In this document: positions 1 through 54,175 of the stretch, one piece after another
Layout: each line of letters begins with the position of its first letter
Position numbering within the stretch: position 1 is the stretch's first letter
Assembly (NCBI GenBank): GCA_039654915.1
Contig: CM077597.1
Location: forward strand, 92,630,001 to 92,694,000
Direction of reading: 5' to 3'
DNA: 64,000 bases
Source: Aquilaria yunnanensis
Lineage: Eukaryota; Streptophyta; Magnoliopsida; Malvales; Thymelaeaceae
Notes under the pieces: generated by a model
Database searches by the model: none
What the model saw: the letters and a program-made list of their open reading frames with translations, nothing else
Told to the model about the DNA's origin: nothing
Program-made: the position numbers and the translations under genes

Positions 1-169
1 TCAACAGTTCAGCTAAACTTCCTCTATAAATAGCCCCCCAAATTTTGTGCTGAACACAGAGAAAATAAGAAAAAAAACTTAGAGCTTCGTTTTGAAAAAA
101 AGGAAAAAATTAGCCTAGGTCCCTGGCCCTCTTCTCTTCCTCTCCAGAAAACCTAAACCTTCTCTGAAT

Positions 170-202
<33 letters not shown>

Positions 203-1825
203 CACCCCCGCGCGCGCACCTCTGCTCCGGAATTCAAAATTCATTTTCAAAAGGTACAACCTCATTTTTTATCCTTCATCTTCTCATATTTATTCATTTT
301 AGTCACTAACCTTTTATTTATTTCTGCAGAATTAACTAATTACTAACTCTCTTTTACATTTTATTTGTTTATTATTGTTATTATTACTAACCTTTAATTA
401 TTGTTGTTATTATTATTATTAACTTACTAATTTACTAACTTTACTAACTTTTATTGTTATTATTGTTAACAACTAACCCAACTAACTTTACTAACTTTTA
501 TTATTGTTATTATTATTGTTATTAAAAACTAATTCTAACAACTAACTTTTATTATCTTTATTATTATTATTATTATAATAATTCATGGAAGGTTATACCT
601 CCTATTTATTTATTTTTAGTGGATGGCCAAAAAGCCCCACTTTATTTATTTGCTTACTATTTATTGATCTTTAACTTTCCTTTATTTACTTTATGTGCTT
701 TTTATTTGTTTATTTATTTATTTGAATATGTTATTTAATTTTTAAAAAAAGTAGAAGGTCAAAAAGCCCCACTTTATTTATTTATTCTTTAATATTCCTT
801 TATTTACTTTATATGTTTTCCTTTTATTTATTTACATGTGTTATTTTATGCATTTTTTTTATGGATGTCTAAACTAAAAAAAAAATCCCCTTTACTTTAC
901 TTTATTTAATTTTCCTTTTATGCCAAAATTTTACTTTATGATAAAATTTATTTCATTTATTTAATAATAAATAAAATCAATAAGTAAATAATAATTAATT
1001 AAAAAAAAAGAAGTTTTATGTGAATAATTAACTTTCTTCATTTTTAAGGCTATCAAAAAAAATCTTTTTCAAACAAAAATCCCCATCCGTCGTTATTTCA
1101 AATCTTCATTATTTTGAAACATCAATTTTTATTTTTTTTCATTAACCTTTTATTAAAATTATTAAAAAATTATAATTGAATAATTCTAAAAATACAACAA
1201 AAAATCAATTCTGTTTTTTTTAAATATATTTTTTAAAAGTAATAATAATTAAAAATTCAAGAAAAATAATAAAATAATAAAATAAAAATTATGACTAAAA
1301 TTCATTAAATAAACAATTAATAAAAAATAATTTCCATATCCGGATGATCCGGCAGGATCTACGGTTTGGAAAATATCAATTTTTTTTTAATTAAATAAAT
1401 TAAATAAATACAAAAGATAAAAATTCATATTTTACGATATAGATTAAATTATTTAAAATTTCACCAAATTCCGTGTCCAAATGACTCGGCAGAGTCCATG
1501 GTTCGGAATCAAAATCTTCCGTGTCCAAATGACTCGGCAGAGTCCATGGTTCGGAAGTATAAAATTTTTACCCGAATTAATTACCAAAATCAACATTTTC
1601 GACTAATTCAGTTAAAATTTCTAAATTAACTGAAAATTATTTAAAAGCAAAGTAAAACAAAAATTAAAATCAACTAAGGTGCCAATTTTGGGCGCTATAA
1701 CAATATTGTTTTAGCGTAACCGTACTCCCGATCCCCGAACTCTCGCAGACCAATTTTAAGGTGACCAATCGACCTAAGAAAACTGATTGGTGGCGACTCC
1801 CGAAAAAGACCCGCACGTTGCCACA
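1..1825 (+). repeat. 5' LTR of the Ogre-like element (left-truncated by window)
   Basis: It matches 11879-13707 base for base wherever I compared them, apart from a poly-T run of 32 against 36. Its end reads GTTGCCACA. The first ~474 bases of the LTR lie left of the window. It holds a TATA box at 25-33, a long T run (171-202), many ATT/TTA-rich stretches, and three copies of a ~40-bp motif (near 1331, 1469 and 1519) built around CAAATGACTCGGCAGAGTCC. Confidence 0.93.
25..33 (+). promoter_or_regulatory. TATA box of the 5' LTR
   Basis: TATAAATAG lies upstream of a leader-like stretch. The identical box is at 11903-11911 in the 3' LTR. It is the probable core promoter for the genomic transcript. 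Confidence 0.7.
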
Positions 1826-1828
1826 GCT

Positions 1829-1846
1829 TGGCGACTCCACTGGGGA
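1829..1846 (+). other. Primer-binding site
   Basis: TGGCGACTCCACTGGGGA begins three bases after the LTR terminal CA. It is absent after the 3' LTR, where flanking copia sequence starts instead. This fixes the element's orientation as + and matches the PBS type seen in Ogre/Tat elements. Confidence 0.82.
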
Positions 1847-2690
1847 ATCCATGTTAGTGAGTCGAGCCTAAAGTTGATTTGTTTTGATTTACTTTGCTTA
1901 TTATGTGGATTTATATGTTATATTTACTTATTCTAAACATGCATAATGCATTCACAATATGAAGCTCTATACCCGAGCTTTCTCAAATCGAACACAATTC
2001 TTTCTAAGCGGAATTGGTGTTGTTGTCCTTGTGAGGCCATGGTCTCCAAGCCTTCACCGGTTTCAAAGTAGCAAAGTAGTGTATTGCCTCCTGAGACGGT
2101 TAGTCTCTGCATGGGCTCACGAAAAGCTACGACTCGAATTAATCCATTCCTTACATTAACCCTAGAGGGTAAGGAATCGGGCTGTCACTATAATTTAGTG
2201 ACGGGATTCAGGAACTATCCCTTGCCTTTTTGATAAGCCACCTTATGCATATAGAACTCCCCACTTAACCATAGAACTGACCATAGAATTTCTACCATTT
2301 TACCAACACCATAAGCATATCCTTGTTATGCTGTGTTGTTACTCTACACTTTTCTTCGTATGGTTTTAACTTGTTTATCCATAATACTTCATGAGTTGTT
2401 AATTGCTATTTAACTTGTTAATAACCTTATTTTTCTTTTGCTATACTTCCGTTCTGTGTAATTATTCTTCATGCATCAAAATCACGCATCAAATTATGCT
2501 AACTTTTTGGTCTTTTTAATAATAACTAGAAGTCTTGAAGTTTCACAATAGTTGATAATCAAGCTCACTCATTGCATACATCAATTACATCAATCACATG
2601 CATATAAAATCTGATAAAAATAATCTCATTGCATGTATTCCATTACATCAATCACGTGCATACAAAGTCTGATAAAAACATAATCTCACA
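1847..2690 (+). other. Untranslated leader of the Ogre-like element, with 60-bp tandem repeats
   Basis: No convincing coding sequence is visible. From about 2572 to 2745 a ~60-bp unit built on CATCAATCACATGCATA and TCTGATAAAAATAATCTC repeats three times with drift. Confidence 0.6.
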
Positions 2691-2769
2691 TTGCATGCAT
2701 GCATTCATTGCATCAATCACATACATGTAGAGTCTAATAAAATAAATCTTACTTTAAAAAGGGGTAAAA

Positions 2770-2996
2770 TTGGACCTCAACGCCAATATCCAACTCGGCT
2801 CCAAACAAGATTAATGGCAGAACAAACTGAAGGACGTCTCATAGATATAGAGTCCAAGATAGAAAATATGGCCGGAGCAATTCCCTCCTCATTACACCAA
2901 AAAATGAAATTCATTTTTGAAGGAAAGTTAATCACAGTCTTTGCTGAAGAAGGCATTCTGCTATCATCTATATCAATAGTAGCAAAGGCCAAGTGA
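2770..2996 (+). pseudogene. Possible gag-pol remnant of an Ogre/Tat element
   Basis: A short open stretch reads like the end of a gag-type coiled segment (RLMAEQTEGRLIDIESKIEN) followed by a segment around MKFIFEGKLITVFAEEG, which recalls the region near the protease of plant Tat/Ogre polyproteins. It ends at a stop codon at 2994-2996, and no neighbouring frame continues the homology. If correct, this is all that is left of the element's replication genes here. The assignment is from memory of family style only and is weak. Confidence 0.33.
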
Positions 2997-4399: not shown

Positions 4400-5600
4400 C
4401 CTCAAGCCAAGCATACATAAAGACCACGATAGTTGGGGGGCAACAGATGAGGTTTAACTTTCTGGAAAGAGTGGCAAATTGAGGTCATCACTATTGAGTT
4501 TTTCACCATAATCAAATTTACTCACGAGTAGTATTAAAAGACCCTTCTTTCACACCACTCAAACTTAACTTTATTCAGACCTAATATTTACCTCTTGATA
4601 TCATCCGCATTCAGCTAAAAGGCTATCCTTGTGAATCATGTTTCTACCTTATTGCCTTGCACAGTTTATGTCTTCGAGTTGGAAAGAGGAGAATGGCAGG
4701 ATATTTTAATTAAAAACAAAGACCGTAAATTACTTTGTCAAGCTTTGCAAATTGATGAAAGTTTTTCTTTAAGGCCAAACCATTATTCATTAATGTGTGT
4801 AGACTTAAAAGTGAGGAGATAGCTTGAGACTTTCTTTAAGAAGATGTGGTTCTTGTAAGAGAGATTTACGATCAAGTGCCATCACAAAGGTCTAGAAATG
4901 CTCGACCTTCTGTTAAAGGCGAGGTGATACCTTTTTATCCACATAAACACCGTATTCAGGGGGCAAAGTAGTCTCTACGAAGCGTAAGAATAGTACTGCC
5001 AAGAAAGAAACTCAACAGACAAGGGGGCAAGTCTTATGGATCAAAACTTGAGCTTAAGGAAGAGCAATCATTCAGATTATAACATGGGGATAAGTAAGTG
5101 TCGGCACGGTCACAAGAAAAGGAGCAAAGCAGACATTGAAAGTAAAGCCTTTGATGGTATCAAATCCATGACAATGGATGAGTACCCGAAAGAGATATAA
5201 ATTATGAGGCGGGCCAACTTTAAAGAAATTGAGGCCAAAATTCAAAGAACAAGTCAAAGAAAGAGGATTTTGAAAAGAGTTGGGCTTTTGAGGCAGCGAA
5301 CAAAAGCTGAAAAGCATAAAGAGATTCAATGATAGTCCAAGAAGGCCATCACAAAAGAGGATCCAGTAAAACAAAGACATAAAGAACTAGATCCATACAA
5401 AAAAAAAAGCCATTAGTTACACATGCTCTGCATTCATGCATTTCATATCATGCATACATAGCCTTTACATAACAAGGACCAAACGGGAATCACATTCACA
5501 GCACAGTTACAGCAGTATAAGCTGAGATTTCAATGTCATCAGCTCTTACCAATCTATCACTGGAAACACAGCTAATATGCGGGACCAACCCACATCAGGA
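4400..5600 (+). other. Internal spacer of the Ogre-like element, no gene recognised
   Basis: One short open frame at 4631-4822 begins with GTG and resembles nothing I know. The rest has no convincing coding sequence. Three GGGGGC(A) purine tracts are the only notable elements. Confidence 0.4.
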
Positions 5601-5608
5601 ATTCAAGG

Positions 5609-5990
5609 ATAAGGTAGACAATATGTCAAAAGCCTGGCAATCGATTCAATAATTGAGACTACACCTGGAAGGACAGGATTGACGTCAGCTAGTAGTATCC
5701 AAGATAAGAGATAGCTATAGCCAAGGATAAGGCAGATATCAAAAAGGATAAAGTAGACAATATTGTCAAAAGCCTGGCAATTGATTCAATAATCGTGGCT
5801 ACACCTGGAAGGACAAGATTGATGCCAGCTTAGCAGCATCTAAGATAAGAGATAGCTGTGGTCAAAGATAAGGCAGACATCAAGAAATATTGTCGTTGAA
5901 AATTTGTCAAAAGTGGACAATGGATTCAATAGTCAAGGACTGGATCAATGTCATGCCTTACGAGATATCAAAGATAAGAAATATCTATGA
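5609..5990 (+). repeat. Tandem repeat (~140-bp unit, 2.5 copies) upstream of the virus-like ORFs
   Basis: The unit contains GTCAAAAGCCTGGCAAT, a CTACACCTGGAAGGACA string and AAGATAAGAGATAGCT. It occurs at about 5609 and 5748, with a partial, diverged third copy to about 5990. It directly precedes the ORF at 6125. Confidence 0.65.
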
Positions 5991-6124
5991 TACCAAAATA
6001 AAGTAGGATCCACTTTTCCGGTTAAACGGCGGATACGGTACTCCGTGACTCTCAAGTCGGTTCTCTCAGTTGCCCATAATAACTGATTCTTTCCTCTCTT
6101 CTTTCTTTTACTTCCCTCTAGAAA

Positions 6125-6673
6125 ATGGATCCTACTCTTTCTGTCTTACGAAAATATTTTCCTTCTCTCCCAATGAACATTCTCAAAAAGATCTACCAAG
6201 TTCGCTGTGAACGATTAAGAGTTCTGATGCACAAAGGAATCCCTGAAGATGTGCGGTGGTTAATCGAAGCCAAGGTTCGTCTGGCAAGTGAAATCCCAGA
6301 GGCATTTGTGTCTCACATGCCTGGTATAGGCAAAAGCTCTTATGCCAAAAAGCGAAGAGCGAAAAGGTTACAAATCTGCCATAAATGTGGACGGTGGACT
6401 TGTAATACTAAATGTCGTTTTTTAGGGATGATCTCTGATAATCGAGAAGATAAAATACGATTCATTAAGAATGGCCTGAGTAAGGACTCATTGGATGATA
6501 TCCAATTGACTCTTGAGACGCATTCTTGTGGATCTGTGCAACGTGAACTTCTTGGTTTATGGAGCATTTTTCATGAAGAACGAAACCGTTACAGTCCCGG
6601 GAATCTGACTGTAAATGACCCTGTTTGCCAGCTTGTAAGAAAACTGGATGGGAAGCAAATCCTCGACTCATAG
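6125..6673 (+). CDS. Cysteine-rich nucleic-acid-binding protein, betaflexivirus NABP-like (copy 1)
   Basis: A 182-residue ORF starting ATG in a good plant context (GAAAATGG). Residues 71-81 are a basic patch (SSYAKKRRAKR) directly followed by a C4 zinc-finger-like cluster, Cys85, Cys88, Cys93 and Cys97 (CX2CX4CX3C), then a conserved-looking RFIKNGLSK at 112-120. A basic patch plus four cysteines and this downstream block recalls the small cysteine-rich NABP encoded at the 3' end of carlavirus and related betaflexivirus genomes, but the protein is longer at both ends. In those viruses the family binds nucleic acid, and several members suppress RNA silencing or alter host transcription. Any such role here is inference. 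Copy 2 follows at 6963 with identical spacing of motifs. It has no stop, frameshift or intron. It could also be a plant zinc-finger protein of unrelated origin. Confidence 0.62.
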   Translation: MDPTLSVLRKYFPSLPMNILKKIYQVRCERLRVLMHKGIPEDVRWLIEAKVRLASEIPEAFVSHMPGIGKSSYAKKRRAKRLQICHKCGRWTCNTKCRFLGMISDNREDKIRFIKNGLSKDSLDDIQLTLETHSCGSVQRELLGLWSIFHEERNRYSPGNLTVNDPVCQLVRKLDGKQILDS

Positions 6674-6835
6674 AAGCCGTTAATGCCGTTACTAGACGTA
6701 AAGCCAGTGGAAGATGTGAGTCACAGTCACAATTACTGTACATACAGTTTGTTATATTTGGAAAAGTTTACATTTTCTTTTGACAGATGTACATGCTCCC
6801 CTAAGTGTAATCGACACGTTATCCCTTTTCATCAC

Positions 6836-6843
6836 TATAAATG
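6836..6843 (+). promoter_or_regulatory. TATA-like box before NABP-like copy 2
   Basis: TATAAATG lies 120 bases upstream of the ATG at 6963, followed by a pyrimidine-rich leader. The ~95 bases before each NABP-like ATG are homologous between the copies (shared GCGGATA, CCGTGACT and ATAACTGATTC). Copy 1 has no equally clear TATA box. Confidence 0.4.
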
Positions 6844-6962
6844 CGTGTTCTTCCTTCTGATTAAGCAGCGGATAAGATACCCCGTGACTTCTAAATTCGG
6901 TTATTCCAGTAGCTTACAATAACTGATTCATTTCCCTCTTCTCTCAAATTCTTCTCTCATCA

Positions 6963-7469
6963 ATGGATTCTACTCTTTCTACCCTGCGAAAATACTTTCC
7001 TTCTCTTCCAATAAAAGTCCTTAAAAAGATCTACCTTGCTAGATGTGAAAGAATCAGAGTATTTATGCACAAAGGCATTCCTGATAATGTGCGGTGGCTA
7101 ATTGAAGCTAAGGTTCGTTCAGCTGGTGAAGTTCCAGAAGCGTTCTTTCCCCGTATGCCCGGCTTTGGTAAAAGCGCTTATGCCAAAAAAAGAAGAACAA
7201 AGAGGCTAGGCGTTTGTCATAATTGTGGATGGTGGATTTGCGGCAATAAATGTCGTTCTCCAGGAGTGATCACCAGAAATCGTAATGATAGAATAAGATT
7301 CATTAAGAATGGCTTGCGTAAGGAATCTCTAGAAGATATTCGAGAGGTTCTTGAAGCGCATTCTTGCGGAATAGTGCAATTTGAGGTTGTTGGATTATGC
7401 ATAATTTTTCAAAAAGAACAAGATCGTTACAGTCTTGGGAATCTGACCCTAAACGACCCTATTTGCTAG
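6963..7469 (+). CDS. NABP-like protein, tandem copy 2, with early stop
   Basis: A 168-residue ORF aligned to copy 1 over its whole length without an indel. By my count 114 of 168 residues are identical. The basic patch (SAYAKKRRTKR) and the cysteines at 85, 88, 93 and 97 are all kept. It ends at TAG (7467-7469), 14 codons before the point matching the end of copy 1, so its extreme C-terminus is lost. The basic-plus-zinc core is intact and it may still be functional. The two copies sit 838 bp apart start to start, including homologous upstream DNA, so the duplication was a promoter-plus-ORF unit. Keeping the core open after ~32% divergence suggests selection (inference). Confidence 0.58.
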   Translation: MDSTLSTLRKYFPSLPIKVLKKIYLARCERIRVFMHKGIPDNVRWLIEAKVRSAGEVPEAFFPRMPGFGKSAYAKKRRTKRLGVCHNCGWWICGNKCRSPGVITRNRNDRIRFIKNGLRKESLEDIREVLEAHSCGIVQFEVVGLCIIFQKEQDRYSLGNLTLNDPIC

Positions 7470-7578
7470 TTTGTGAGAAAGTTAGATGAGATGCAAATCA
7501 CCGATTCATAGAAAGCATTGAAGCCATTACTGGACGCAAAGCCAGTGGAAGACGAGGATCAAAGTCACGATTACTCTA

Positions 7579-7915
7579 CGTGCTAGCTGTTGCTTTTGAA
7601 ATTTTCCTCCCCTTTCGGCGATAATGTATCCACTCCTAACATGAGCCATGGTTACGATACTGTACATGCTAGCTGTCGCTTTTGAAATTTTCCTTCTCAT
7701 TTGGCAATAATGTACCCACTCCTGACACGGACTACTGTATATAGCTGCCACTTTTGAAATTTTCCTTCTCTTCCGACAATCACGTACCTACTCCTGACAT
7801 AAGCTACAATCGCGACTACTGTATATTTTAGTTGCTTTTGAAATTTTCCTCCTCTTTTAACGATAGTGTACCCATACCTGACCAGAGTCATATTCGTGAC
7901 TACTGTGAATAGCTG
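7579..7915 (+). repeat. Degenerate ~80-bp tandem repeats between NABP copy 2 and LOG
   Basis: Four to five units share a TTTTGAAATTTTCCT core, with GATAATGTATCCACTCCT-like and AGCTGTYGC strings. They start near 7582, 7669, 7741 and 7827, with a partial unit at 7908. The array ends just upstream of the LOG TATA box, so it could act as a repeated upstream promoter element (inference). Confidence 0.65.
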
Positions 7916-7968: not shown

Positions 7969-7978
7969 TATAAATATA
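7969..7978 (+). promoter_or_regulatory. TATA box just upstream of the LOG ORF
   Basis: TATAAATATA is preceded by pyrimidine-rich sequence and ends 30 bases before the LOG ATG at 8009. With a normal 25-35 base TATA-to-start distance the leader would be only a few bases, or transcription could start a little downstream. Confidence 0.5.
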
Positions 7979-8008: not shown

Positions 8009-8638
8009 ATGGAGAAAACCTCAACTCGTAAATCCCGAAGTATTTGTGTATTTTCTGGGGCTTTTCCTGGAAAAGATGAAGAATACTTAAAGGCAGCCAA
8101 TCATTTGGGTAGAGTATTAGCTGAGCGTAAAATACATTTAGTTTATGGAGGAGGTAGTGTCGGATTAATGGGAGGCGTAGCATCAGCAGCATCTTTAGGA
8201 GGAAGTCAAGTTCTAGGCATTATCCCAGGACCTTTGAAATTTGTTTCTGGGGGCACGATTGGAGAAGAATTAGTGGTTAAAAATTTGCAAGAGCGTGTAT
8301 TACAAATGCTTTTAAATGCTGATGCTTTTATCGCTCTACCAGGTGGTTTTGGCACATTGGGAGAAGTCTTTCAAATCGCTTCCATGGCCCAACTTAATTT
8401 GCATAAGAAACCCATTGGGCTTTTAAATGTTAACAATTTCTTTATAGGTCTGATAGCTTTTATGGATTATGCTATGCAGAAGAATTTCATATCAAGAGTG
8501 GCACGGCGAATCATAATATCCGCAACAACTGCTGAAGAATTGCTAGATAAAATACAAGCTTTTGTTCCTGAACCAGATCCAGCAATGATTCAGATAGACT
8601 GGACACGACAGTCTTTCCCGACCAGTTCACTCCCATAA
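8009..8638 (+). CDS. LOG-like: LONELY GUY (LOG)-type cytokinin riboside 5'-monophosphate phosphoribohydrolase, intronless, inside the retrotransposon
   Basis: A 209-residue intact ORF. LOG enzymes release active cytokinin base and ribose 5-phosphate from cytokinin nucleotides in the cytosol. Landmarks in order: SICVFSGAFPGK at the N-terminus, the VYGGGSVGLMG nucleotide-binding segment, an ERV segment keeping the catalytic-type Arg, the signature PGGFGTLGE (PGGxGTxxE) with its Glu, KPIGLLNVNNF, and FISRVARRIIISATT near the C-terminus. The length matches plant LOGs. Departures from the plant norm are Ser for Cys in the first motif, LQERV where MHQRK is usual, and Gly before the signature Glu. 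I chose the ATG at 8009 over an upstream in-frame ATG at 7922 because the family's start aligns here and the TATA box lies between them. Plant LOG genes have several introns and this one has none, which fits capture from an mRNA. Confidence 0.9.
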   Translation: MEKTSTRKSRSICVFSGAFPGKDEEYLKAANHLGRVLAERKIHLVYGGGSVGLMGGVASAASLGGSQVLGIIPGPLKFVSGGTIGEELVVKNLQERVLQMLLNADAFIALPGGFGTLGEVFQIASMAQLNLHKKPIGLLNVNNFFIGLIAFMDYAMQKNFISRVARRIIISATTAEELLDKIQAFVPEPDPAMIQIDWTRQSFPTSSLP

Positions 8639-9199: not shown

Positions 9200-10968
9200 A
9201 TCAGGGTTTTAAGGATGGAACCTTTGCCTCGAAAATAATCAATTTTCATCATCGGGGTTTTAAGGATGGAACCTTTGCCTCGAAAATAATCAATTTTCAT
9301 CATCGGGGTTTTAAGGATGGAACCTTTGCCTCGAAAACAATCAATTTTCATCATCGGGGTTTTAAGGATGGAACCTTTGCCTCGAAAATAATCAATTTTC
9401 ATCATCGGGGTTTTAAGGATGGAACCTTTGCCTCAAAAACAATTAATTTTCATCATCGGGGTTTTAAGGATTGAACATTTGCCTCGAAAACAATCAATTT
9501 TCATCATCGGGGTTTTAAGGATAGAACCTTTGCCTCAAAATCAATCAATCAATCCGAGGTTTTAAGGATGGAACCTTTGCCTCGAGATCAATCAATCAAT
9601 TCGAGGTTTTAAGGATGAAACCTTTACCTCGACATCAATCAATCAATCCGAGGTTTTAAGGATGGAACCTTTGCCTCGAGATCAATCAATCAATTCGAGG
9701 TTTTAAGGATGGAACCTTTGCCTCGACATCAATCAATCAATCCGGGGTTTTAAGGATGGAACCTTTGCCTCAAAAACAATCAATTTTCATCATCGGGGTT
9801 TTAAGGATTGAACCTTTGCCTCGAAAACAATCAATTTTCATCATCGGGGTTTTAAGGATAGAACCTTTGCCTCAAAATCAATCAATCAATCCGAGGTTTT
9901 AAGGATGGAACCTTTGCCTCGAGATCAATCAATCAATTCGAGGTTTTAAGGATGAAACCTTTACCTCGACATCAATCAATCAATCCGAGGTTTTAAGGAT
10001 GGAACCTTTGCTTCGAGATCAATCAATCAATTCGAGGTTTTAAGGATGGAACCTTTACCTCGACATCAATCAATCAATCTGAGGTTTTAAGGATGAAACC
10101 TTTGCCTCGAACTCAATCAATCGTCGAGGTTTTAAGGATGGAACCTTTGCCTCGACATCAATCAATCAATCTGGGGTTTTAAGGATGGAACCTATGCCTC
10201 GAGATCAATTATCAATCCGAGGTTTTAAGGATGGAACCTTTGCCTCGAAAACAATCAATTATCAATCCGAGGTTTTAAGGATGGAACCTTTGCCTCGAAC
10301 TCAATCAATCGTCGAGGTTTTAAGGATGGAACCTTTGCCTCGACATCAATTAATCAATCCGGGGTTTTAAGGATAGAACCTTTGCCTCGAGATCAATCAA
10401 TCAATCCGGGGTTTTAAGGATGGAACCTTTGCCTCCAGATCAATTATCAATCCGAGGTTTTAAGGATGGAACCTTTGCCTCGACATCAATCAATCAATCC
10501 GAGGTTTTAAGGATGGAACCTTTGCCTCGACATCAATCAATCAATCCGGGGTTTTAAGGATGGAACCTTTGCCTCGACATCAATCAATCAATCCGGGGTT
10601 TTAAGGATGGAACCTTTGCCTCGAGATCAATCCATCAATCCGAGGTTTTAAGGATGGAACCTTTGCCTCGAGATCAATCAATCAATCTGAGGTTTTAAGG
10701 ATGGAACCTTTGCCTCGAGATCAATCAATCAATCCGAGGTTTTAAGGATGGAACCTTTGCCTCAAGATCAATCAATCAATCCGAGGTTTTAAGGATGGAA
10801 CCTTTGCCTCGAAAACAATCAATTTTCATTCATCAGGGTTGTAAGGATGGAACCTTTGCCTCGAAATCAATCAATCAATCCGAGGTTTTAAGGATGGAAC
10901 CTTTGCCTCGAAATCAATCAATCAATCCGAGGTTTTAAGGATGGAACCTTTGCCTCGAAAACAAATAA
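9200..10968 (+). repeat. Minisatellite array of about 37 units (~47 bp each)
   Basis: The core GGTTTTAAGGATGGAACCTT followed by TGCCTCGA recurs about 37 times by my count. The linker takes two forms: an AATCAATTTTCATCATCGG type (first ~7 units and a few later) and an ATCAATCAATCAATCCG type (most others). Intermixed variants show higher-order duplication. Each unit contains short inverted parts (AGGTT/AACCT, GAGG/CCTC) that could fold. Hypervariable tandem arrays between the last ORF and the 3' LTR are known in Ogre/Tat elements. Confidence 0.93.
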
Positions 10969-10976
10969 TCAATCAA

Positions 10977-11298
10977 TCAGTCCATCTTACAACGATAGGA
11001 GCTTTCCTATCGTTAGAGGTTCTAAGGACCTTTCCTTAACCTCAAACAAACAATCAATCCATCAGTCCATCTTACAACGATAGGAAATTTCCTATCGTTA
11101 GAAGTTCTAAGGACCTTTCCTTAACCTCAAACAAATAATCAATCAATCAGTCCATCTTACAACGATAGGAGCTTTCCTATCGTTAGAGGTTCTAAGGACC
11201 TTTCCTTAACCTCAAACAAATAATTAATCAATCAGTCCATCTTACAACGATAGGAGCTTTCCTATCGTTAGAGGTTTTAAGGACCTTTCCTTAAACCT
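10977..11298 (+). repeat. Four ~90-bp repeats each holding an 8-bp-stem hairpin
   Basis: Each unit reads TCCATCTTACAA, then CGATAGGAGCTTTCCTATCG, then a block ending CTTTCCTTAACCTCAAACAA. The palindrome CGATAGGA/TCCTATCG with a four-base loop occurs in all four units. In unit 2 the loop is altered to AATT. Confidence 0.88.
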
Positions 11299-11404: not shown

Positions 11405-12047
11405 TGTTGACACCCAATTTCGTCCGGGTGTTTTAAAATTTTAAAAATTTTTATTAAAAAAAATTAATTTAAAAAAAAATATTACTATTATTATTAAAAA
11501 AATTTAATTAGTTTAAAATATATTTTTGTTTTGTGAAAATTTGATTTAAAATGATATATGTGTGAATATGTGTATGTTTGAAATAAAATAAAATTTCATG
11601 AAAAAAATGACAAAAAATTAAAAGTTTGAGGTAAAAATGACAAAATTGAGAAGTTTTGGGAAAATTTGACAAATTCTAAAAGTTCCAGGAGCATTTGGTA
11701 GTTTGTCACATAAAATTTTGAGTCTGCCGACGTTTCTAGCCCAAATTGACAGAAAACGACAAAATTGTCAAAATCAGAAGCTTCAGGAACTTATCCTGAG
11801 GCTGAGAGACGTAAAGGACTAAAATTGTCATTTTACCAATTTAAGAGATAAGTTTGAAATTTTTTATTAATTTATCCATCAACAGTTCAGCTAAACTTCC
11901 TCTATAAATAGCCCCCCAAATTTTGTGCTGAACACAGAGAAAATAAGAAAAAAAACTTAGAGCTTCGTTTTGAAAAAAAGGAAAAAATTAGCCTAGGTCC
12001 CTGGCCCTCTTCTCTTCCTCTCCAGAAAACCTAAACCTTCTCTGAAT

Positions 12048-12084
<37 letters not shown>

Positions 12085-13707
12085 CACCCCCGCGCGCGCA
12101 CCTCTGCTCCGGAATTCAAAATTCATTTTCAAAAGGTACAACCTCATTTTTTATCCTTCATCTTCTCATATTTATTCATTTTAGTCACTAACCTTTTATT
12201 TATTTCTGCAGAATTAACTAATTACTAACTCTCTTTTACATTTTATTTGTTTATTATTGTTATTATTACTAACCTTTAATTATTGTTGTTATTATTATTA
12301 TTAACTTACTAATTTACTAACTTTACTAACTTTTATTGTTATTATTGTTAACAACTAACCCAACTAACTTTACTAACTTTTATTATTGTTATTATTATTG
12401 TTATTAAAAACTAATTCTAACAACTAACTTTTATTATCTTTATTATTATTATTATTATAATAATTCATGGAAGGTTATACCTCCTATTTATTTATTTTTA
12501 GTGGATGGCCAAAAAGCCCCACTTTATTTATTTGCTTACTATTTATTGATCTTTAACTTTCCTTTATTTACTTTATGTGCTTTTTATTTGTTTATTTATT
12601 TATTTGAATATGTTATTTAATTTTTAAAAAAAGTAGAAGGTCAAAAAGCCCCACTTTATTTATTTATTCTTTAATATTCCTTTATTTACTTTATATGTTT
12701 TCCTTTTATTTATTTACATGTGTTATTTTATGCATTTTTTTTATGGATGTCTAAACTAAAAAAAAAATCCCCTTTACTTTACTTTATTTAATTTTCCTTT
12801 TATGCCAAAATTTTACTTTATGATAAAATTTATTTCATTTATTTAATAATAAATAAAATCAATAAGTAAATAATAATTAATTAAAAAAAAAGAAGTTTTA
12901 TGTGAATAATTAACTTTCTTCATTTTTAAGGCTATCAAAAAAAATCTTTTTCAAACAAAAATCCCCATCCGTCGTTATTTCAAATCTTCATTATTTTGAA
13001 ACATCAATTTTTATTTTTTTTCATTAACCTTTTATTAAAATTATTAAAAAATTATAATTGAATAATTCTAAAAATACAACAAAAAATCAATTCTGTTTTT
13101 TTTAAATATATTTTTTAAAAGTAATAATAATTAAAAATTCAAGAAAAATAATAAAATAATAAAATAAAAATTATGACTAAAATTCATTAAATAAACAATT
13201 AATAAAAAATAATTTCCATATCCGGATGATCCGGCAGGATCTACGGTTTGGAAAATATCAATTTTTTTTTAATTAAATAAATTAAATAAATACAAAAGAT
13301 AAAAATTCATATTTTACGATATAGATTAAATTATTTAAAATTTCACCAAATTCCGTGTCCAAATGACTCGGCAGAGTCCATGGTTCGGAATCAAAATCTT
13401 CCGTGTCCAAATGACTCGGCAGAGTCCATGGTTCGGAAGTATAAAATTTTTACCCGAATTAATTACCAAAATCAACATTTTCGACTAATTCAGTTAAAAT
13501 TTCTAAATTAACTGAAAATTATTTAAAAGCAAAGTAAAACAAAAATTAAAATCAACTAAGGTGCCAATTTTGGGCGCTATAACAATATTGTTTTAGCGTA
13601 ACCGTACTCCCGATCCCCGAACTCTCGCAGACCAATTTTAAGGTGACCAATCGACCTAAGAAAACTGATTGGTGGCGACTCCCGAAAAAGACCCGCACGT
13701 TGCCACA
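11405..13707 (+). repeat. 3' LTR of the Ogre-like element (2303 bp, complete)
   Basis: It begins TGTTGACACCCAATTTCGTC and ends GTTGCCACA, with TG...CA ends. 11879-13707 is the copy of 1-1825, differing only by four extra Ts in the poly-T run as far as I could see. TATA box at 11903-11911. The downstream target duplication would be GGGAT (13708-13712), but the matching copy is outside the window. Confidence 0.95.
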
Positions 13708-13708
13708 G

Positions 13709-14158
13709 GGATACGTATTTTTTATGGGAGATACAGCTTTCACATGGCTATCGAAAAAGCAGCCAATTGTCACACTCTCGACATGTGAAGCAGAATATGT
13801 TGCAGCATCTTGGTGTGTCTGTCATGCAATTTGGGTGAGAAACCTCTTGGGCGAGTTAGGGCAAGAGCAACGTGAGCCAACCGAGATCCGAATTGACAAC
13901 AGATCAGCTATTGAGCTAGCCAAGAATCCGGTGAACCATGAACGAAGCAAACATATTGATGTGCGATTTCATTTCATACAAAGCAAGATAAAAGATGGAA
14001 GTGTGAAACTTAAGCACGTAGCAAGTCATGACCAGGTAGCGGACATATTCACCAAACCGTTGCCTACGGTGTTGTTTGAAAACTACAAAAGGATGATAGG
14101 CATGAAGGATATAAAGGAATTAAGTTTAAGGAGGGGTGTTGGAAATAAACTTAATTAA
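13709..14158 (+). pseudogene. Ty1/copia RNase H C-terminal fragment, split by the Ogre-like insertion
   Basis: Translation from 13709 gives the end of a copia polyprotein: FTWLSKKQPIVTLSTCEAEY, then a DNRSAIELAKNPVNHERSKH segment, then a VADIFTKPLP block and a stop at 14156-14158. These are the hallmark copia RNase H motifs, including the Glu of CEAEY and the Asp of IDN. The reading frame is open, but its N-terminal part must lie beyond the Ogre-like element, left of the window. The frame also runs on upstream into the LTR by chance, which produces an artificial fusion. Confidence 0.92.
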
Positions 14159-25686: not shown

Positions 25687-28600
25687 ATGGTACGGCTATC
25701 TTTTATGTTAATCTCTTGAGTTTTTTGAATTCTTGTGTCTTGTTTAGTGTTTAGTTGTGATGCATTGTTTTTTTATACATAGGTGATGTTTACGGTTGAG
25801 GGAATGAGAAGACTCATGGAAAATAAACATAATATCCGTAATTTGTGTGTCATTGGACATATTGACCATGGTATGAATCTTATCATCTTTTGCGTGGTTC
25901 TCTTTTACTAGATGCATACAGAGTACTTCCTCTGTAATGTTTTGCTTTTTCTGGTACATTATGGTACAGAGTACTGGTTGATGCTAGATGCAAGTGTAGT
26001 CCCCTACTAACACACAATACAAAACAAAATTTTCTGGCCTTTTTGCTTATTATTTGTTTTCTGCTAAGTGTCTATAAGCTCTTGATGTGTATTATTTTGG
26101 TCACCTACATGTAGGAACATGTAGATCGTTTGGTATAATCTTCCTTTTTTGTGTTTTCATTTTAAGGACTTCACTCAAATTATGAAGTTCATACTTCCAA
26201 TTTTTTCACGTGGTTTCTCATTTTCCTGTTTTGTTTTCAAGAAACTGAGCAAGACCAAAGCTGCAGATAGGAAATAGGTTGCAGTAGAGGGGCTGTTCTG
26301 TTAGAGAGAATTTTTATATTTTGCTTTCACAATTTTTTGAGGACTTGGGTGCACTGCTTTCTGGTTTCAAGAAACTAAGAGGACAATCAAAAGATATTTG
26401 TGGTTTAGCTCAGTTCTCCTGATCTTAGCAAAGAAAGTCTTCAACATCCGTGAAAAATATTGAGTTTCACTTTCACTGAAGGAATTTTCCAGGAAAAGAA
26501 ACTATCCTCGACTAGACAGGCCATTTATTATTCTGCTATTTAATTCCCTCTTCATCATTCATGATGTTCTGCTATTTCATTTGCTTGTTTATCACTCATG
26601 GTGGAAGAACTATCTTCATCTATTGTGTAAATCTGTCAACCAGAGAAGAAAGGTTTTCCACCATACTCTACAATGTTCCACCATACTCTACAATGTTCTC
26701 ATACTGTTCTGACAATTCACAGGAAAGTCAACACTTATCACTTCCCTTGTGGCTGGTGCTGGTATCCTTGCACAAGAATTCCCTGGTCAGGTTAGGATGA
26801 AAGGAACCCGACAGGGTGAGGCTGAAGAGGGTGCTACAATCAAGTCTACTGGTGTATCTCTCTATTATGAAATGAGTGACGAGTCTATGAAGAATTACGA
26901 GGGACAGAGACAGGGCAATGAGTATCTCATAAATCTTATTGACTCACCTGGGCATGTGGACTTTTCATCTGAAGTCACTGCTGCTCTTCGGATTACTGAT
27001 GGTGCTCTCGTGGTTGTAGACTGTGTGGAAGGTGTTCGTGTCCAGACGGGGAATGTGATCCGACAAGCACTTGGTGAGAGGATCAGGCCTGTCCTAACTG
27101 TTAACAAGTTGGACAAGTGCTTCATCGAGCTTCAGGTAGATGGAGAGGAGGCCTACCAGACGTTCCAGAGGGTCATTGAGGACGCAAATGTGGTTATTGC
27201 CACTTATGACGACCCCTTTCTTGGAGATGTTCAGGTCTACCCTGAGAAAGGAACGGTTGCATTCTCTTCTGGGTTGCATGGTTGGGCTTTCACTTTGAAC
27301 AACTTCGCAAAGATGTATGCCTCCAAATTTGGAGTTGATGAGACAAAGCTGGTGGAAAGACTGTGGGGTGACAACTTCTTTGACCCAGATACAAAGAAGT
27401 GGACCACCAAAAGCACCGGGTCTCCGAAATGCAAGCGTGGGTTTGTTCAGTTTTGCTATGAACCCATCAAGAAGATTATCAACACCTGCATGAATGGCCC
27501 AAAAGAGAAGCTGTGGGAAATGTTGGAAAAACTGGGCGTGACGATGAACTCTGGAGAGAAGGATTTGATGGGCAAGCATCTTATGAAGCGTGTCATGCAG
27601 AACTGGCTTCCTGCAAGCTGTGCTGTGCTTGAAATGATGATATATCATCTCCCCTCACCTGCTAAGGCCCAGGAATACCGTGTTGAGAACCTTTATGAAG
27701 GTCCCCTAGATGATCATTATGCAACAGCTATTCGGGATTGTGACCCTGAGGGTCCATTGATGCTTTACGTTTCAAAGATGATTCCTGCATCTATTCCTGC
27801 ATCTGAAAAGGGTAGATTTTTTGCTTTTGGTCGTGTGTTTGCTGGTAAGGTTGCAACTGGGATGAAAGTGAGGATCATGGGACCAAATTACGTCCCTGGG
27901 GAGAAAAGGGATTTATATGTAAAGAACATCCAGAGGACTGTTATCTGGATGGGAAAGAAGCAGCAAACGGTCGAATATGTTCCGTGTGGCAACGTTGTTG
28001 GCATGGTTGGCTTGGACCAATTTATTACAAAGAATGCCACTCTTACTGGTGAAAAGGAAGCTGATGCTTGTCCTATCAAAGCAATGAAGTTCTCTGTTTC
28101 TCCTGTTGTACGTGTGGCTGTTCAGTGCAAGGTAGCAGCAGATCTTCCCAAGCTTGTGGAAGGCCTCAGGAGTTTGGCAAAGTCTGATCCTATGGTTGTG
28201 TGTACAATTGAGGAGTCTGGAGAGTACGTCATCGCCGGTGCAGGCCAACTGCACTTGAAGACCTGTTTGAAGGACTTGCGAGACGATTTCGTGGGAGGAG
28301 CTGAGATCATACACTCTGAACCTGCTGTGTCATTCCGTGAGACTGTCCTTGAGAGGTCTTCCAGGACTGTGATGTGCAGAACTCCAAATAAGCTCAACCG
28401 TATATTCATGGAGGCTCGTCCAATGGAGGAGGGTCTTGCAGAGGCTATTGATGAGGGTCGTATTGGACCCAGGGATGATCCTAAAGTCTGGTCAAGGATC
28501 TTGTCAGAGGAGTTTGGCTGGGATAAGGATCTTGCAAAGAAGATTTGGTGTTTTGGTCCTGAAACTACCGGTCCCAACATGGTTGTGGATAAGTGCAGGG

Positions 28601-29175
28601 GAGTCCAGTACTTGAATGGGATAAAGGATTCTGTGGTTGCTGGGTTCCAATTGGCATCAAAGGGAGGCGTCCTAGCAGGGGAGAACATGAGGGGTATATG
28701 CTTTGATATATGTGATGCCATCCTGCATGCTGATGCTATTAAGAGAGGTGGTAATCAGGTCGTTCCCACTGTTAGGAGGGCTATACATGCTTCCCAGCTG
28801 ACTGCCAAGCCAAGGGTTCTTGAACCTGTGTATTTGGTGGAGATCCAGACCCCAGAGCACGCTCTTGGTGCTATTAAGAACGTTGTCCATATGAGCCGAG
28901 GGCATGTGTTTGAGGAAACGCGGAGGCCAGGTTCCCCGTTGTGCAAAATTATGGCTTACCTTCCCGTTGTCGAGTCATTTGGATTCCCAGGCACGTTGTG
29001 GGCTGCTACATCTGGCCAGGCCTTTCCACAGTTTGTATTTGATCACTGGGCCTTGATGCCGTCTGATCCTTTTGAGCCCACTTCCCAAGCTGGGGTCTTG
29101 GTTGCTAAAACACGGATGAGGAAGGGCTTGAAGGAGCAGATACCTCCAATTTCCAAATACGAGGATGAGATGTGA
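25687..29175 (+). CDS. Diverged translation elongation factor 2 (eEF2) paralogue
   Basis: Three coding exons: ATG alone at 25687-25689 (followed by GT), 25783-25870, and 26723-29175. Joined they give 847 codons against 843 in normal plant eEF2. The extra four come from a 12-base tandem repeat encoding IPAS twice (27781-27804). eEF2 is the GTPase that drives ribosome translocation. G1 (GHIDHGKST, residues 26-34), G3 (DSPGH) and G4 (NKLD) are intact, and domains II-V follow in order to the usual C-terminus. Odd points: switch I reads [13 protein letters not shown] where plants have TRxDEAERGITI. In domain [11 protein letters not shown] has Lys704 where the diphthamide-precursor His is otherwise nearly universal. 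Many near-invariant residues are changed, yet there is no stop or frameshift over 2.5 kb. It is either a specialised paralogue or a gene early in decay. Confidence 0.9.
28741..28743 (+). other. Diphthamide His position replaced by Lys (AAG) in the eEF2 paralogue
   Basis: The codon for residue 704 is AAG. In eukaryotic eEF2 the matching His of the motif IHRGGGQ is converted to diphthamide. Here the motif reads IKRGGNQ, so this protein cannot carry the modification. Confidence 0.88.
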
Positions 29176-30952: not shown

Positions 30953-31092
30953 ATTTTAATTTCGTTTCATTAGGTCTCGAGGAAGAAGGGAAAAACTTGT
31001 GTCCCTCCGCCGCCGTATTTTCGTTCAAGATTGCCAGCCAGCAAAGATAAGTTTGACAGGCGCAACAAGCGGAAGCAAAAGAAGTTGTGCCA

Positions 31093-32205
31093 ATGGAGGA
31101 GGATGATTTTAGGCTATGTGATCTTCCCGATGAGATTGTGATCCACATCCTCGACAGACTCAATTCCGTGGCGAGAGTTCGTTTCGCTGCTGTTTGCAGG
31201 GCCTGGAAACTTCTGCTTCGTAGGCTTCTCCCACTTCTCGCAGAGCCAAAAGAGCTCCCATGGTTTATAACAGGAGGGCAAGACAAGAAGGGCCACTGCA
31301 TCGTTCTTCAACAGACATGTTCTCGTAACAACCAACTGGAAGCCTGCACCAAAATCAAGCGCACCTTGAAGCAAGAGTTGCTCGACGCAATCCCACCAGC
31401 CAGAGCAGAACGCAGTGGGTTTGAGCATGGTACAAGTTCCGGTTGGGTTGTTTTTTATTTCATGGACCAGCCTCGTCCTGCTCTCTGCTTGTACTCCCCT
31501 TTCACTGAGAAACTTATCTATCTGCCACCTGGTTTGCCTCGTTGTTACAAGGGGCTCGCGATGTCCCATCCTCCAACTTGTTCCGATTGTGTCTTTTTCG
31601 CCTTTTCGGATTGCTGGTCGGAGATGTGTACTTACACATGGCGCCCTGGTGACAAGAATTGGACGAAGCATGACCTTGACATTGTTTGTGATATGATTCG
31701 TACGGCACCCACATTGGAGAGTTTGATGTTTCTTGAAGGAAGCTTCTATTGCCTATTTCGTAGTGGTCATCTGTTGGCCTTCAAGGTCGCTGACAAATCG
31801 TGGAAACTGTTGACGGATTCTAGGCCATCAGAAGCTCTTTATGACTTCTCTTGTAGATATTATGAATTGGCTGAATGTGATGGCGATATCATACTGGTGG
31901 CCTACGCTTGCCTGTCACAAAATTGCCGTTGTAGTGCGTGGAAGTACGAGTGGGCGGAGAGGAGCTGGAGGAAGATCAACAATTTGGGTGGACGGGTGTT
32001 ATTTGTCAACCAGGGACCATGCTCCAAGAGCATGGCGGTTCCAGCAGTCGGAGAGCTGCAAGGTTTGGCCGATAGGATCTATTGCTCTTATGATGGGCAT
32101 CTCCAGACGTATTTTTCATTGCGGGATGGGAAGTTCCATTGCTATAATTTTTCTATTAGTTATGCATATTTGTATTGGATTACACCCCCACCGTTACAAG
32201 TTTGA
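31093..32205 (+). CDS. F-box protein with DUF295-type C-terminal region
   Basis: A 370-residue single-exon ORF starting at ATG 31093. An upstream in-frame GTG is not needed. Residues ~6-50 form an F-box (LCDLPDEIVIHILDRL, then VRFAAVCRAWKLLL), which binds SKP1 and places the protein in an SCF ubiquitin ligase. The C-terminal part has the repeated beta-strand look of plant DUF295/kelch-like substrate-recognition regions: LCLYSPFTEKLIYLPPGLP, SGHLLAFKVADKSWKLL, ELAECDGDIILVAYA, and SWRKINNLGGRVLFV. The substrate is unknown. It is intact and has a broken relative at 52081, as expected for this fast birth-and-death family. Confidence 0.87.
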   Translation: MEEDDFRLCDLPDEIVIHILDRLNSVARVRFAAVCRAWKLLLRRLLPLLAEPKELPWFITGGQDKKGHCIVLQQTCSRNNQLEACTKIKRTLKQELLDAIPPARAERSGFEHGTSSGWVVFYFMDQPRPALCLYSPFTEKLIYLPPGLPRCYKGLAMSHPPTCSDCVFFAFSDCWSEMCTYTWRPGDKNWTKHDLDIVCDMIRTAPTLESLMFLEGSFYCLFRSGHLLAFKVADKSWKLLTDSRPSEALYDFSCRYYELAECDGDIILVAYACLSQNCRCSAWKYEWAERSWRKINNLGGRVLFVNQGPCSKSMAVPAVGELQGLADRIYCSYDGHLQTYFSLRDGKFHCYNFSISYAYLYWITPPPLQV

Positions 32206-41669: not shown

Positions 41670-42065
41670 CACATAACACCTACACTTTGCCGTCTCTATA
41701 TTAAAAAAACTACACTTTACCCCCTTCCCCCGCTCTTTTTACATTGTCTGGCAACAACTTCTTTAACCTCTAATTTAAACTGTACGGTAACTATGTTCCA
41801 ATAATTTCAAAATTTTTGATACTTTCTTCAATGTTAATTTTCATTTTAAAAATATTGATTGGCATTTACAAATAGAAATTTGTATTTATAGAAAATAAAA
41901 AATTTGATAATTTAAAATGTTTATTAATTATAAAAAATTTTAGAGAGATTGAAATTATTAAAAGATAACTATCGTATATCTTAAAGTAGTGTTTCAGAAA
42001 CTATTGTTGGACAACGTAAAACAAGCAAAGGCAAAGTGTATGTTTTAAAAAGTAAGGAGCATAAG
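41670..42065. repeat. Duplicated block, copy B, left part
   Basis: Matches 35150-35525. It is cut at ATAAG (42061-42065) by the insertion of the 7.25-kb element and resumes at 49316. Confidence 0.7.
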
Positions 42066-42992
42066 TGATAGCGCGTCGTACGCCATCGTTTGTGTTCCCA
42101 CCGTGGCTACACGACGGGGGTGGCAGGGACCTCCTGTAAAACGTCGCAGGTCGCCGTCCAATGATGGATAGCGGTGGCCGTGAAGGATTCTGGTGCTGGA
42201 GAGAACTTGAACAGTGGACGTCCCTAAGCAGTCCGGCCTAAAACATACAGAAAACAGGGGTTAGGAGGTCCCCGGAGTGGTTTTCCGGGGAGGAGCCTCC
42301 GACGCCCAAGTCAGTGCCTCTAAATGACAAAGAGTGAGCCTAAAATAGACTTGTAGAGCATTTTTCTCCGGCATGCCCATGAGGGAAAGAATCTCGCCGG
42401 AGGCGTTTTTCTGGCATGTCTTTGAGGAAGGCTAGGATTCTGGAGACCTCTCAAAGCCCCTGTCTGGCCCCCAAAAGTGCCCAAAAAGCCCCCTTTACCC
42501 AGAGCCTCTCTTGTGGTAAATAGGGAAAATGAACCCCTCTGATGGTGACACGTGTATAGGCCGATGCCATTCGTACCTCTGAGCAGAAAAGTGACCAGCT
42601 GTGTGCAGGCTTTCTCGAACAGTGGTTTGTCGAGAAGCACGCCTCAGTGTGCCAGAGCACGGGCTACAGTGGCCTGTCAGAAGCTCGAGGTCAATGTCTA
42701 GTGCGTACGGGCGAATATGTCAGAGACTCCTTAGCATCGCCCATCACTCCTCCGAGGTCCCTTCAGCCGACGTTACCCTTTAGGGAAACAAGCAGGGATC
42801 TCTCCCCGGGGTGATACCGTTTCTTCGGGGTTATGCATTCTTCCGAAGTTGGTTCATTCGTCCTCTGACGGAGAGGCGACATGGTAATTTTCTGAGGTTG
42901 GTACGATGGGGCTTCCGAGGTCGCATATGTCGGGCGTTTGGCCACCCTCTTCTCCAAAGTCAGTGGCCAGGGCGATATCACTTTGGCTATCA
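42066..42992 (-). repeat. 3' LTR of the Tat-like element (left copy)
   Basis: 927 bp. On the minus strand it starts TGATAGCC and ends GCGCTATCA. Open frames inside it recur in the other LTR only because the LTRs are copies. Confidence 0.93.
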
Positions 42993-48387: not shown

Positions 48388-49315
48388 TGATAGCGCGTCG
48401 TACGCCATCGTTTGTGTTCCCACCGTGGCTACACGACGGGGGTGGCAGGGACCTCCTGTAAAACATCGCAGGTCACCGTCCGATGATGGATAGCGGTGGC
48501 CGTGAAGGATTTCTGGTGCTGGAGAGAACTTGAACAGTGGACGTCCCCAAGCAGTCCGGCCTGAAACATACAGAAAACAGGGGTTAGGAGGTCCCCGGAG
48601 TGGTTTTCCGGGGAGGAGCCTCCGACGCCCATGTCAGTGCCTCTAAATGACAAAGAGTGAGCCTAAAATAGACTTGCAGGGCATTTTTCTCTGGCATGCC
48701 CATGAGGGAAAGAATCTCGCCGGAGGCGTTTTTCTGGCATGTCTTTGAGGAAGGCTAGGATTCTGGAGACCTCTCAAAGCCCCTGTCTGGCCCCCAAAAG
48801 TGCCCAAAAAGCCCCTTTTACCCAGAGCCTCTCTTGTGGTAAATAGGGAAAATGGACCCCTATAATGGTGACACGTGTATGGGCGGATGCCATTCGTACC
48901 TCTGAGCAGAAAAGTGACCAGCTGTGTGCAGGCTTTCTCGAACAGTGGTTTGTCGAGAAGCACGCCTTAGTGTGCCAGAGCACGGGCTACAGTGGCCTGT
49001 CAGAAGCTCGAGGTCAACGTCTAGTGCGTACGGGCGAATATGTCAGAGACTCCTTAGCATCGCCCATCGCTCATCCGAGGTCCCTTCAGCCGACGTTACC
49101 CTTTAGGGGAACAAGCAGGGATCTCTCCCCGGGGTGATACCGTTTCTTTGGGGTTATGCATTCTTTCGAAGTTGGTTCATTCGTCCTCTGACGGAGAGGC
49201 GACATGGTAATTTTCCGAGGTTGGTACGATGGGGCTTCCGAGGTCGCATATGTAGGGCGTTTGGCCACCCTCTTCTCTGAAGTCAGTGGCCAGGCCGATA
49301 GCACTTTGGCTATCA
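48388..49315 (-). repeat. 5' LTR of the Tat-like element (right copy)
   Basis: 928 bp, a copy of 42066-42992 with about 30 differences, mostly transitions, and one single-base indel that I saw. Confidence 0.93.
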
Positions 49316-53145: not shown

Positions 53146-53149
53146 AGCT

Positions 53150-54175
53150 GCATTTAGGACCAATTTGGGCAAAATATGATGAAATTATATAATGGTTTGC
53201 TGGAGAGATTTAAGACCCTTTTCAAATATGGATATTTTCCTTTTCGAGTAATGATTATACAAACTAAACTTATGCCATAAGCCATTCTCCCACTATATTA
53301 CTATAGTTTCTTCGGTCTCTAAATTATCAAAATTGACATTAGGTGATGCGTTATAATTTTTCAGAAATTACGAGTCATGCCACTGTGTCCAATTTTCTCA
53401 AAATTTCAAATCATGTCATTTGATATATACAACCAGGGGGAAATAGAAGCTTTCAAAGCCACTCTTACAACTTCCTCTACAAGATTTTGATTTCCGGTTA
53501 CTGTCCATCCTTCCTCTTCTGTTTGTCATGCTCTTTGCTTGCAATTTCTTTGTTTTCTACTATATGTCCTGCTACGAAAGACGATCGTAGTAGACTAAAA
53601 CCCTAATCTATAGAAATTGGCTGCGCTCAGCTTCTAAGCCTTCAATAAGAAGATTTTTCGACAAAATCGACAAATCTTAACATGGAAAGACCACGCGATA
53701 AAGAAACACTTGGCAAGGAATTGTATGCACTTTTTCTCTCATAGACCTCTTCATCTGATCTCTTCTTGTCTGTTATTTGCTACTAAAAGTCTTCTTACAC
53801 CATTTTTTTTCTTGAATGAGTGTAATCAGAGAAAGAAAGAAGAAACAAACACCTAAATTACAAAAACAGGAAAAAGGAAAGAAAATAAAATCATATCGGT
53901 AACTAAAACTAGAAACATCTTTGGGGAAGAAAAAAACATCTATTAAGTTTGAAGAAATGAAAGCTGAAAGGTATTTGATTATGTTTGTGTTTGTCGTTTT
54001 ACTAGCCTCTGTATTTTTTTTAATTTCTGAAAGTATTTGTTCTTTTCCACTTTCATTTTGTTCCTTTATAAGTAACTGTTTTTTCTCTTAAATGACTCTC
54101 TTTGCTATTTTTAGTCCAAGTGCTTTTTTGTTTATTTGTTCTAATTTATTCTTTTAGGAGTCTCTTTGTGTACCT
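53150..54175. other. No gene recognised
   Basis: GC content rises slightly at 53440-53720, with ATGGAAAGACCACGCG near 53682, which looks like a decayed 5' exon but cannot be assigned. The remainder is AT-rich. Confidence 0.3.

Follow-up and report, generated by a model that had tools for sequence, protein, structure and literature searches.

Predicted homologues of flexivirus nucleic-acid-binding proteins and a LONELY GUY-like gene carried by a young LTR retrotransposon of Aquilaria yunnanensis

LONELY GUY (LOG) enzymes activate cytokinin, and LOGL4 was reportedly noticed in Athila-like elements by Steinbauerova et al. in 2011. For Citrus and Populus, Gypsy elements with LOG/YgdH domains have been described, as have elements with a G-patch in several species (PMC9289625, in part); genes for nucleic-acid-binding proteins (NABPs) are not mentioned alongside the LOG/YgdH elements in sections 12 and 17 of that paper. 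The extra ORFs of Ogre/Retand elements include those for the plant mobile domain and for Transposase_28 (PMC6317226 and PMC11963269, parts of each). The element family described here is, like the Citrus and Populus elements, of Gypsy type with an additional ORF for a LOG-type protein, but its LOG gene lies behind NABP genes and has a conserved TATA box. The family shares with Ogre/Retand the presence of extra ORFs and tandem arrays in a long internal region, as well as an additional RNase H that precedes the integrase, and differs in that its extra ORFs are in sense orientation, follow pol and represent different protein families. While the Retand set treated in the relevant part of PMC11963269 has LTRs of 315-1194 bp and an antisense TRP28, the LTRs found here measure 2.3 kb and the extra ORFs are sense. 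An earlier note on this DNA, made from its letters only, knew of no described Ogre/Tat element with such cargo. For NABP this agrees with our literature search, which covered few subscription papers and showed no report of an NABP in a retrotransposon among the titles and abstract openings listed; it does not hold for the neighbouring LOG gene, since LOG is already known as cargo of plant Gypsy elements (PMC9289625, in the sections named above).

The window, i.e. the whole stretch of 64,000 nt that was analysed (assembly GCA_039654915.1, contig CM077597.1, positions 92,630,001 to 92,694,000), contains a complete LTR retrotransposon insertion of 14,181 bp with TG...CA ends and a 5-bp target duplication, as determined by comparison of the LTRs and of the target site duplication (TSD; Table 1). 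The first 474 bases of the 5′ LTR lie upstream of the window (genomic C5:92629527-92630000), and the part inside it was 99.78% identical to positions 11879-13708 when the window was compared with itself. Both ORFs that the earlier note had assigned to one retrotransposon do lie inside this element, between two 2299-bp LTRs with GGGAT on either side. Indels are the sole differences between the LTRs (0 substitutions), and the insertion is thus very recent. The putative primer binding site is presumably that for tRNA-Arg. The ORF lists of the window element contained no gag-pol ORF, and this copy is therefore most likely a non-autonomous derivative. A fragment at 2676-2996 had no Pfam match of its own; by eye, it has MAGAIPSSLHQKMKF.. 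in common with the G-patch ORF of a relative, L028. Matches to positions 5400-6010 were present in the fetched relatives as well, and the 140-bp GATAAG repeats located there (5605-5931) could be an enhancer of the cassette. The element seems to have inserted into a Copia-type RNase H-like remnant (ORF 13643-14158), recognized by eye in a stretch that gave no Pfam match.

Table 1. Features of the retrotransposon, in window coordinates
Feature	Position	Strand	Description
5′ LTR	1..1825 in window; full span -473..1825	+	2299 bp, TG...CA
Putative primer binding site TGGCGACTCCACTGGGGA	1829..1846	+	Basis: sequence
Remnant, protease/G-patch part of lost polyprotein	2676..2996	+	By eye
2.3 copies of 140-bp repeat, five GATAAG motifs	5605..5931	+	Upstream of NABP-1
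NABP-1	6125..6673	+	182-aa zinc-finger protein, intact
NABP-2	6963..7469	+	168 aa, paralogue of NABP-1
Four diverged copies of 70-bp repeat	7572..7883	+	Between NABP-2 and LOG
TATA box CTATAAATA	7969..7978	+	About 30-40 nt upstream of LOG start
LOG	8009..8638	+	209 aa, LONELY GUY-like phosphoribohydrolase, no intron
3′ tandem arrays, 47-bp unit x37 and 85-bp unit x4	9200..11294	+	
3′ LTR	11409-13707	+	2299 bp; from LTR comparison
Target site duplication GGGAT	13708..13712	+	Identical five bases abut 5′ LTR start

The two tandem ORFs were found exactly where the earlier note had located them, both on the plus strand, and were named NABP-1 and NABP-2. Codon-by-codon comparison gave the 68% identity, without gaps over 168 codons, that had been claimed. 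The basic YAKKRR patch followed by CX2CX4CX3C was likewise present in both, as YAKKRRAK and C85-x2-C88-x4-C93-x3-C97 in NABP-1, and as YAKKRRTK with the same cysteine spacing in NABP-2. The stop of NABP-2 falls at codon 169, 14 residues short of the usual end of the family. The substitution analysis that the note had called for gave a dN/dS of 0.23 (dS 0.86, dN 0.20; 168 codons), which indicates an old duplication kept by purifying selection. The DNA similarity continues into the leader and the 3′ flank (6016-6741 versus 6855-7579, 75%), so the duplicated segment was larger than the ORF. An alignment of 88 family members was built from the two window ORFs and 86 of 120 listed database proteins, the other 34 being mainly short or fused. 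All four cysteines were conserved in 77 of the 88 and the basic patch pattern in 81. In a quick tree every paralogue formed a single group; of the database proteins, P0001 fell within that of NABP-1, and P0003 was placed next to NABP-2.

The kinship with flexivirus NABPs that had been proposed was supported by the Pfam search suggested at the time, in which two viral models matched. NABP-1 exceeded the Pfam cut-offs of both Viral_NABP (PF05515; 30.8 versus 23 bits) and Carla_C4 (PF01623; 27.7 versus 20.9), while NABP-2 passed the former (25.1 versus 23 bits) and narrowly missed the latter (20.0 versus 20.9). Each model was matched by 83 of the 88 aligned members at E<=0.01, all of five NABPs that were scanned passed both cut-offs, and in a search of the genome with Viral_NABP the best 150 scored matches all lay above the Pfam cut-off. 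None of 10 shuffled sequences matched Viral_NABP or Carla_C4, five of them having been shuffled with the cysteines fixed in place and the composition preserved per 10 residues, and the Viral_NABP search of 14 control genomes returned no match in any. These two controls rule out a chance zinc finger. A closer match to a plant zinc-finger family had been named as one result that would tell against the kinship. The Pfam scan of the 88 members yielded, apart from the viral models, three families with one member each and no zinc-finger family, and a PDB sequence search gave nothing below E 0.3; with none in Pfam or among the solved structures, a plant zinc-finger family is ruled out. NABP had no match in NCBIfam, NABP-1 (the sole protein tried) had none in PHROGs, and no relative was found in a viral contig collection searched with NABP-1, with the alignment A1 and with A3, a slice covering the zinc finger.

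Structural comparison was less informative. The AlphaFold model obtained from the 88 sequences was weak (pLDDT 65, pTM 0.30), so that ranks in BFVD are supportive at most. With this model (pLDDT 65) as query, the top 10 BFVD matches had E values of 0.07-0.9, none reaching 0.001, and TM-scores of about 0.2, which amounts to a lean rather than proof. Seven of these weak matches (E 0.07-0.9) were annotated as nucleic-acid-binding protein or as RNA silencing suppressor; the other three were a 15-kDa Cherry mottle leaf virus protein and the ‘HP’ of Gymnadenia betaflexivirus 1, both small proteins of other betaflexiviruses, and an unnamed protein. The top 10 lean towards flexivirus proteins, but no match is significant by itself.

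Judged by their profile matches, the NABP genes are homologues of flexivirus NABPs and, because they lie inside an LTR retrotransposon with a TSD, not viral genes in situ. The match covers about 90 residues holding the basic patch and the cysteine cluster. The genes differ from viral NABPs in the length of 182 aa, the CX2CX4CX3C spacing, the tandem copies, the N- and C-terminal parts beyond the match and the chromosomal LTR retrotransposon that carries them. The 182-aa architecture, the paralogues and the dS of 0.86 point to long residence and rule out a fresh viral insertion.

Other copies of the element were sought, as the earlier note had advised, and the cassette was present at all the places inspected (10 of 10 and 4 of 4). 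The first 10 were hand-picked from the list of Viral_NABP matches; at each, NABP genes were followed by LOG in constant order and strand. The number of NABP genes was two at two places, three at seven and four at one, and the LOG match was fragmented at two. LTR matches flanked the genes on both sides at four places; at four others they were confined to the 5′ side and at two to the 3′ side, some fetched stretches ending short of where the LTRs would come. In the relative L028 (C7:33752300-33762299) the cassette is preceded by protease, G-patch, RT, RNase H and integrase, and two gag-like ORFs had no Pfam match; another relative, L011, carries a Retrotrans_gag domain. In a third, L023, where pol is rearranged, an extra RNase H (RVT_3) precedes H2C2 and rve (integrase) in one ORF. 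An additional RNase H ahead of the integrase is a criterion of the Tat clade (PMC6317226, in part) and fits Ogre/Retand. By this domain order the element family is a Tat-clade (Ogre-like) LTR retrotransposon, as the earlier note had implied, the placement coming from relatives since the window copy itself lacks pol. The pol pieces of L023 (G000:C5:11856000-11865999) are mutually inverted beside the cassette, this copy being either rearranged or nested.

With the L028 integrase as query, 25,304 first-look candidates were obtained, and the best 126, which were scored, lay mostly in 1144-aa open frames. Four places were chosen from these by integrase alone and 6 kb were read downstream; NABP genes (three, three, two and three) and LOG followed the integrase at all four, each as a gapless near-full-length tblastn match. 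With the exception of the third NABP gene of L043 (148 aa), all NABPs appeared in the ORF list as complete frames from ATG to stop, and LOG was a complete frame at three of the four, with 156 aa in L043. Copies with an open integrase frame are taken to be autonomous, the regions read being the integrase and the 6 kb downstream. Since NABP and LOG occur in both sets of other places (10 of 10 and 4 of 4), a lone capture in one copy is ruled out.

The LOG gene, which follows NABP-2, had not been part of the earlier finding. Its product matched Lysine_decarbox (E 8e-30) and, above cut-off, TIGR00730, and shared 46-47% identity with two LOG-type proteins of Arabidopsis whose structures have been solved. 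The motif PGGxGTxxE is kept as PGGFGTLGE, together with the conserved arginine. The lysine after this arginine is missing, as in most of 120 listed relatives, and so is the tryptophan of TWAQL, which 117 of the 120 retain. The protein scored 97.4 bits, far under the 300-bit cut-off of the NCBIfam LOG equivalog (NF058542), a cut-off that comes from a library built for bacterial and archaeal annotation. Owing to the lost lysine and tryptophan and the low equivalog score, enzymatic activity of the predicted LOG is not assured. A TATAAA or TATATA motif was found within 110 nt upstream of LOG at all 19 places (one being the window copy), and the LOG-upstream sequences displayed all contain TATAAATA. 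Neither NABP-1 (0 of 13) nor the middle NABP gene (0 of 8) had a TATA motif within 110 nt.

The family is a large one. First-look searches of the genome yielded 8,237 candidates for NABP-1, of which the best 150 were 97-100% identical (own place included) and one had a stop, and 3,662 for LOG, of which the best 150 were 98-100% identical and none had a stop. First-look candidates are unconfirmed copies, and these open-frame fractions hold for the best-scoring copies only, so that they carry no information on the decay of the remaining ones. Among the fetched copies, stops were present in 6 of 11 distinct sequences of NABP-1, 6 of 20 of NABP-2, 3 of 8 of the middle gene and 4 of 17 of LOG. Substitution ratios were calculated from gapless near-full-length matches, skipping stop codons. 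At dS 0.2-0.4, dN/dS was 0.21 for NABP-1 and 0.27 for NABP-2; close pairs gave 0.50 and 0.41, higher values being expected from decay after insertion. NABP-2 showed 0.22-0.27 at places picked by LOG, and the middle paralogue 0.79-0.96 among eight copies, a relaxed ratio. For LOG, only places not picked by LOG were used, because the full set includes copies picked by LOG similarity; dN/dS there was 0.34, 0.22 and 0.17 with rising dS, the last value being a single pair. Comparison of the four integrase-bearing copies with the others (L001-L028) gave 0.23 for NABP-1, 0.40 for the middle gene, 0.25 for NABP-2 and 0.21 for LOG. Purifying selection acts on NABP-1, NABP-2 and LOG, which were amplified together with the element. 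That the ORFs are functionless passengers, open merely through the youth of the copies, is very improbable. The shortened NABP-2 of the window copy, the stops in several copies and the seemingly relaxed middle paralogue speak for this, but it is disfavoured by the substitution ratios as estimated (about 0.2-0.28 between lineages at dS 0.2-0.4), and against it also stand the open frames in 149 NABP-1 and 150 LOG sequences, from sets selected as the best-scoring 150 of each, and the occurrence of relatives in several eudicot genera.

NABP and LOG most likely form a selected accessory module, in which NABP would counter silencing or alter host transcription and LOG would raise cytokinin, and the conservation of the cassette together with its apparent selection suggests that the element uses these genes to manage its host. 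NABP would enter the nucleus through the basic patch and bind RNA or DNA with its zinc finger. By analogy with its viral relatives it might protect the element by suppressing silencing, by reprogramming host transcription, or both. LOG would raise active cytokinin locally, so that cells keep dividing; dividing cells would favour expression of the element and its passage through the germ line, with more heritable insertions. Copies of the window type would take gag-pol in trans and still supply the accessory proteins. Counting against such functions, which we infer, are the stops in some copies, the relaxed middle paralogue, the weak fold model, the altered LOG residues and low equivalog score, and the missing TATA motif near NABP-1 and the middle gene. 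We give an even chance to the full reading, namely that the window element is a young gag-pol-less member of a Tat-clade family whose selected NABP-LOG cassette would protect the element and raise cytokinin. A functional parallel may be VANC of the VANDAL elements, an element-encoded anti-silencing protein such as NABP is proposed to be; VANDAL, however, is a DNA transposon and VANC acts by DNA hypomethylation (PMC13317346, in part). The likeness would be a functional one.

NABP could instead serve mainly the life cycle of the element itself, as an RNA chaperone, a packaging or regulatory factor or a second nucleocapsid-like protein, and not act on host silencing. The basic patch and cysteine cluster would suit RNA binding, the NABP genes lie downstream of the integrase at the four places chosen by it, and the extra ORFs of Retand are thought to be regulatory (PMC11963269, in part). 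We consider this somewhat unlikely, as the relative L011 has a separate gag domain and the closest profiles are those of viral NABPs, a group that includes silencing suppressors: the NaBP of SPCFV has been reported as such, as has the CRP of CYVCV for single-stranded triggers (PMC12172455, in part). According to the same source, p12 of chrysanthemum virus B (CVB) suppresses silencing weakly and is a transcription factor that induces hyperplasia, which lends some weight to the idea that NABP is a nuclear transcription factor driving proliferation together with LOG, suppression being minor or absent. LOG adjoins the NABP genes at all 10 + 4 places examined, as this idea would have it; with the neighbourhood of the LOG active site altered, we regard it as unlikely.

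If NABP, as an accessory protein of the element, does suppress silencing, a retrotransposon and RNA viruses would share one family of counter-defence proteins, and it would become testable how certain plant elements multiply to high copy numbers despite silencing. Combined with a cytokinin-activating enzyme, it would exemplify an endogenous element that alters the hormone state for its own spread.

The family extends beyond this genome. A database search with NABP gave 241 candidates, of which 214 were relatives at E<=0.01; 120 of these were listed, and the named sources include Populus, Xanthoceras, Rhamnella and Orobanche. Among the relatives of LOG, Reevesia pubescens was represented by many proteins, and Paulownia and Populus by some. 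The two lists were tied by six coincidences of contigs with the same source and size, three of them on contigs of at least 1500 bp (8723, 4511 and 2128) versus a mean of 0.33 in offset controls. These matching contig sizes, the sole basis for the comparison, suggest that the cassette is common to other plant genomes. A predicted protein of Rhamnella rubrinervis, P0063, fuses what looks by eye like a Gypsy polyprotein segment to NABP, and is listed by one source as a reverse transcriptase domain protein, in agreement with a position of NABP near pol in another plant. Eudicot proteins annotated as ‘hypothetical’, ‘Viral nucleic acid binding’ or ‘LOGL’ may be retrotransposon genes. More tentatively, and with rather more doubt than confidence, a eudicot Tat lineage may long ago have exchanged a suppressor or transcription-factor gene with RNA viruses, duplicated it and joined it to a captured cytokinin-activating enzyme, giving a two-part, virus-like programme of host manipulation in which silencing would be disarmed and proliferation induced, in trans for a large family. 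The finding raises the question of the origin of flexivirus NABPs, that is, whether the gene passed from viruses to elements or the reverse.

Several other features were observed in the window. An 820-codon open frame at 26713-29175 resembles elongation factor 2 by eye and is probably a host gene beside a repeat-rich stretch. An F-box-like ORF, also recognized by eye, is present at 31057-32205 and 52110-53245, with diverged partial copies of about 77-87% identity elsewhere in the 31-54 kb region, perhaps a local gene cluster. Finally, a 931-bp direct repeat (42063-42992 versus 48385-49315) is 97% identical, with starts 6.3 kb apart and ORFs in between, and possibly represents the LTRs of another young element.
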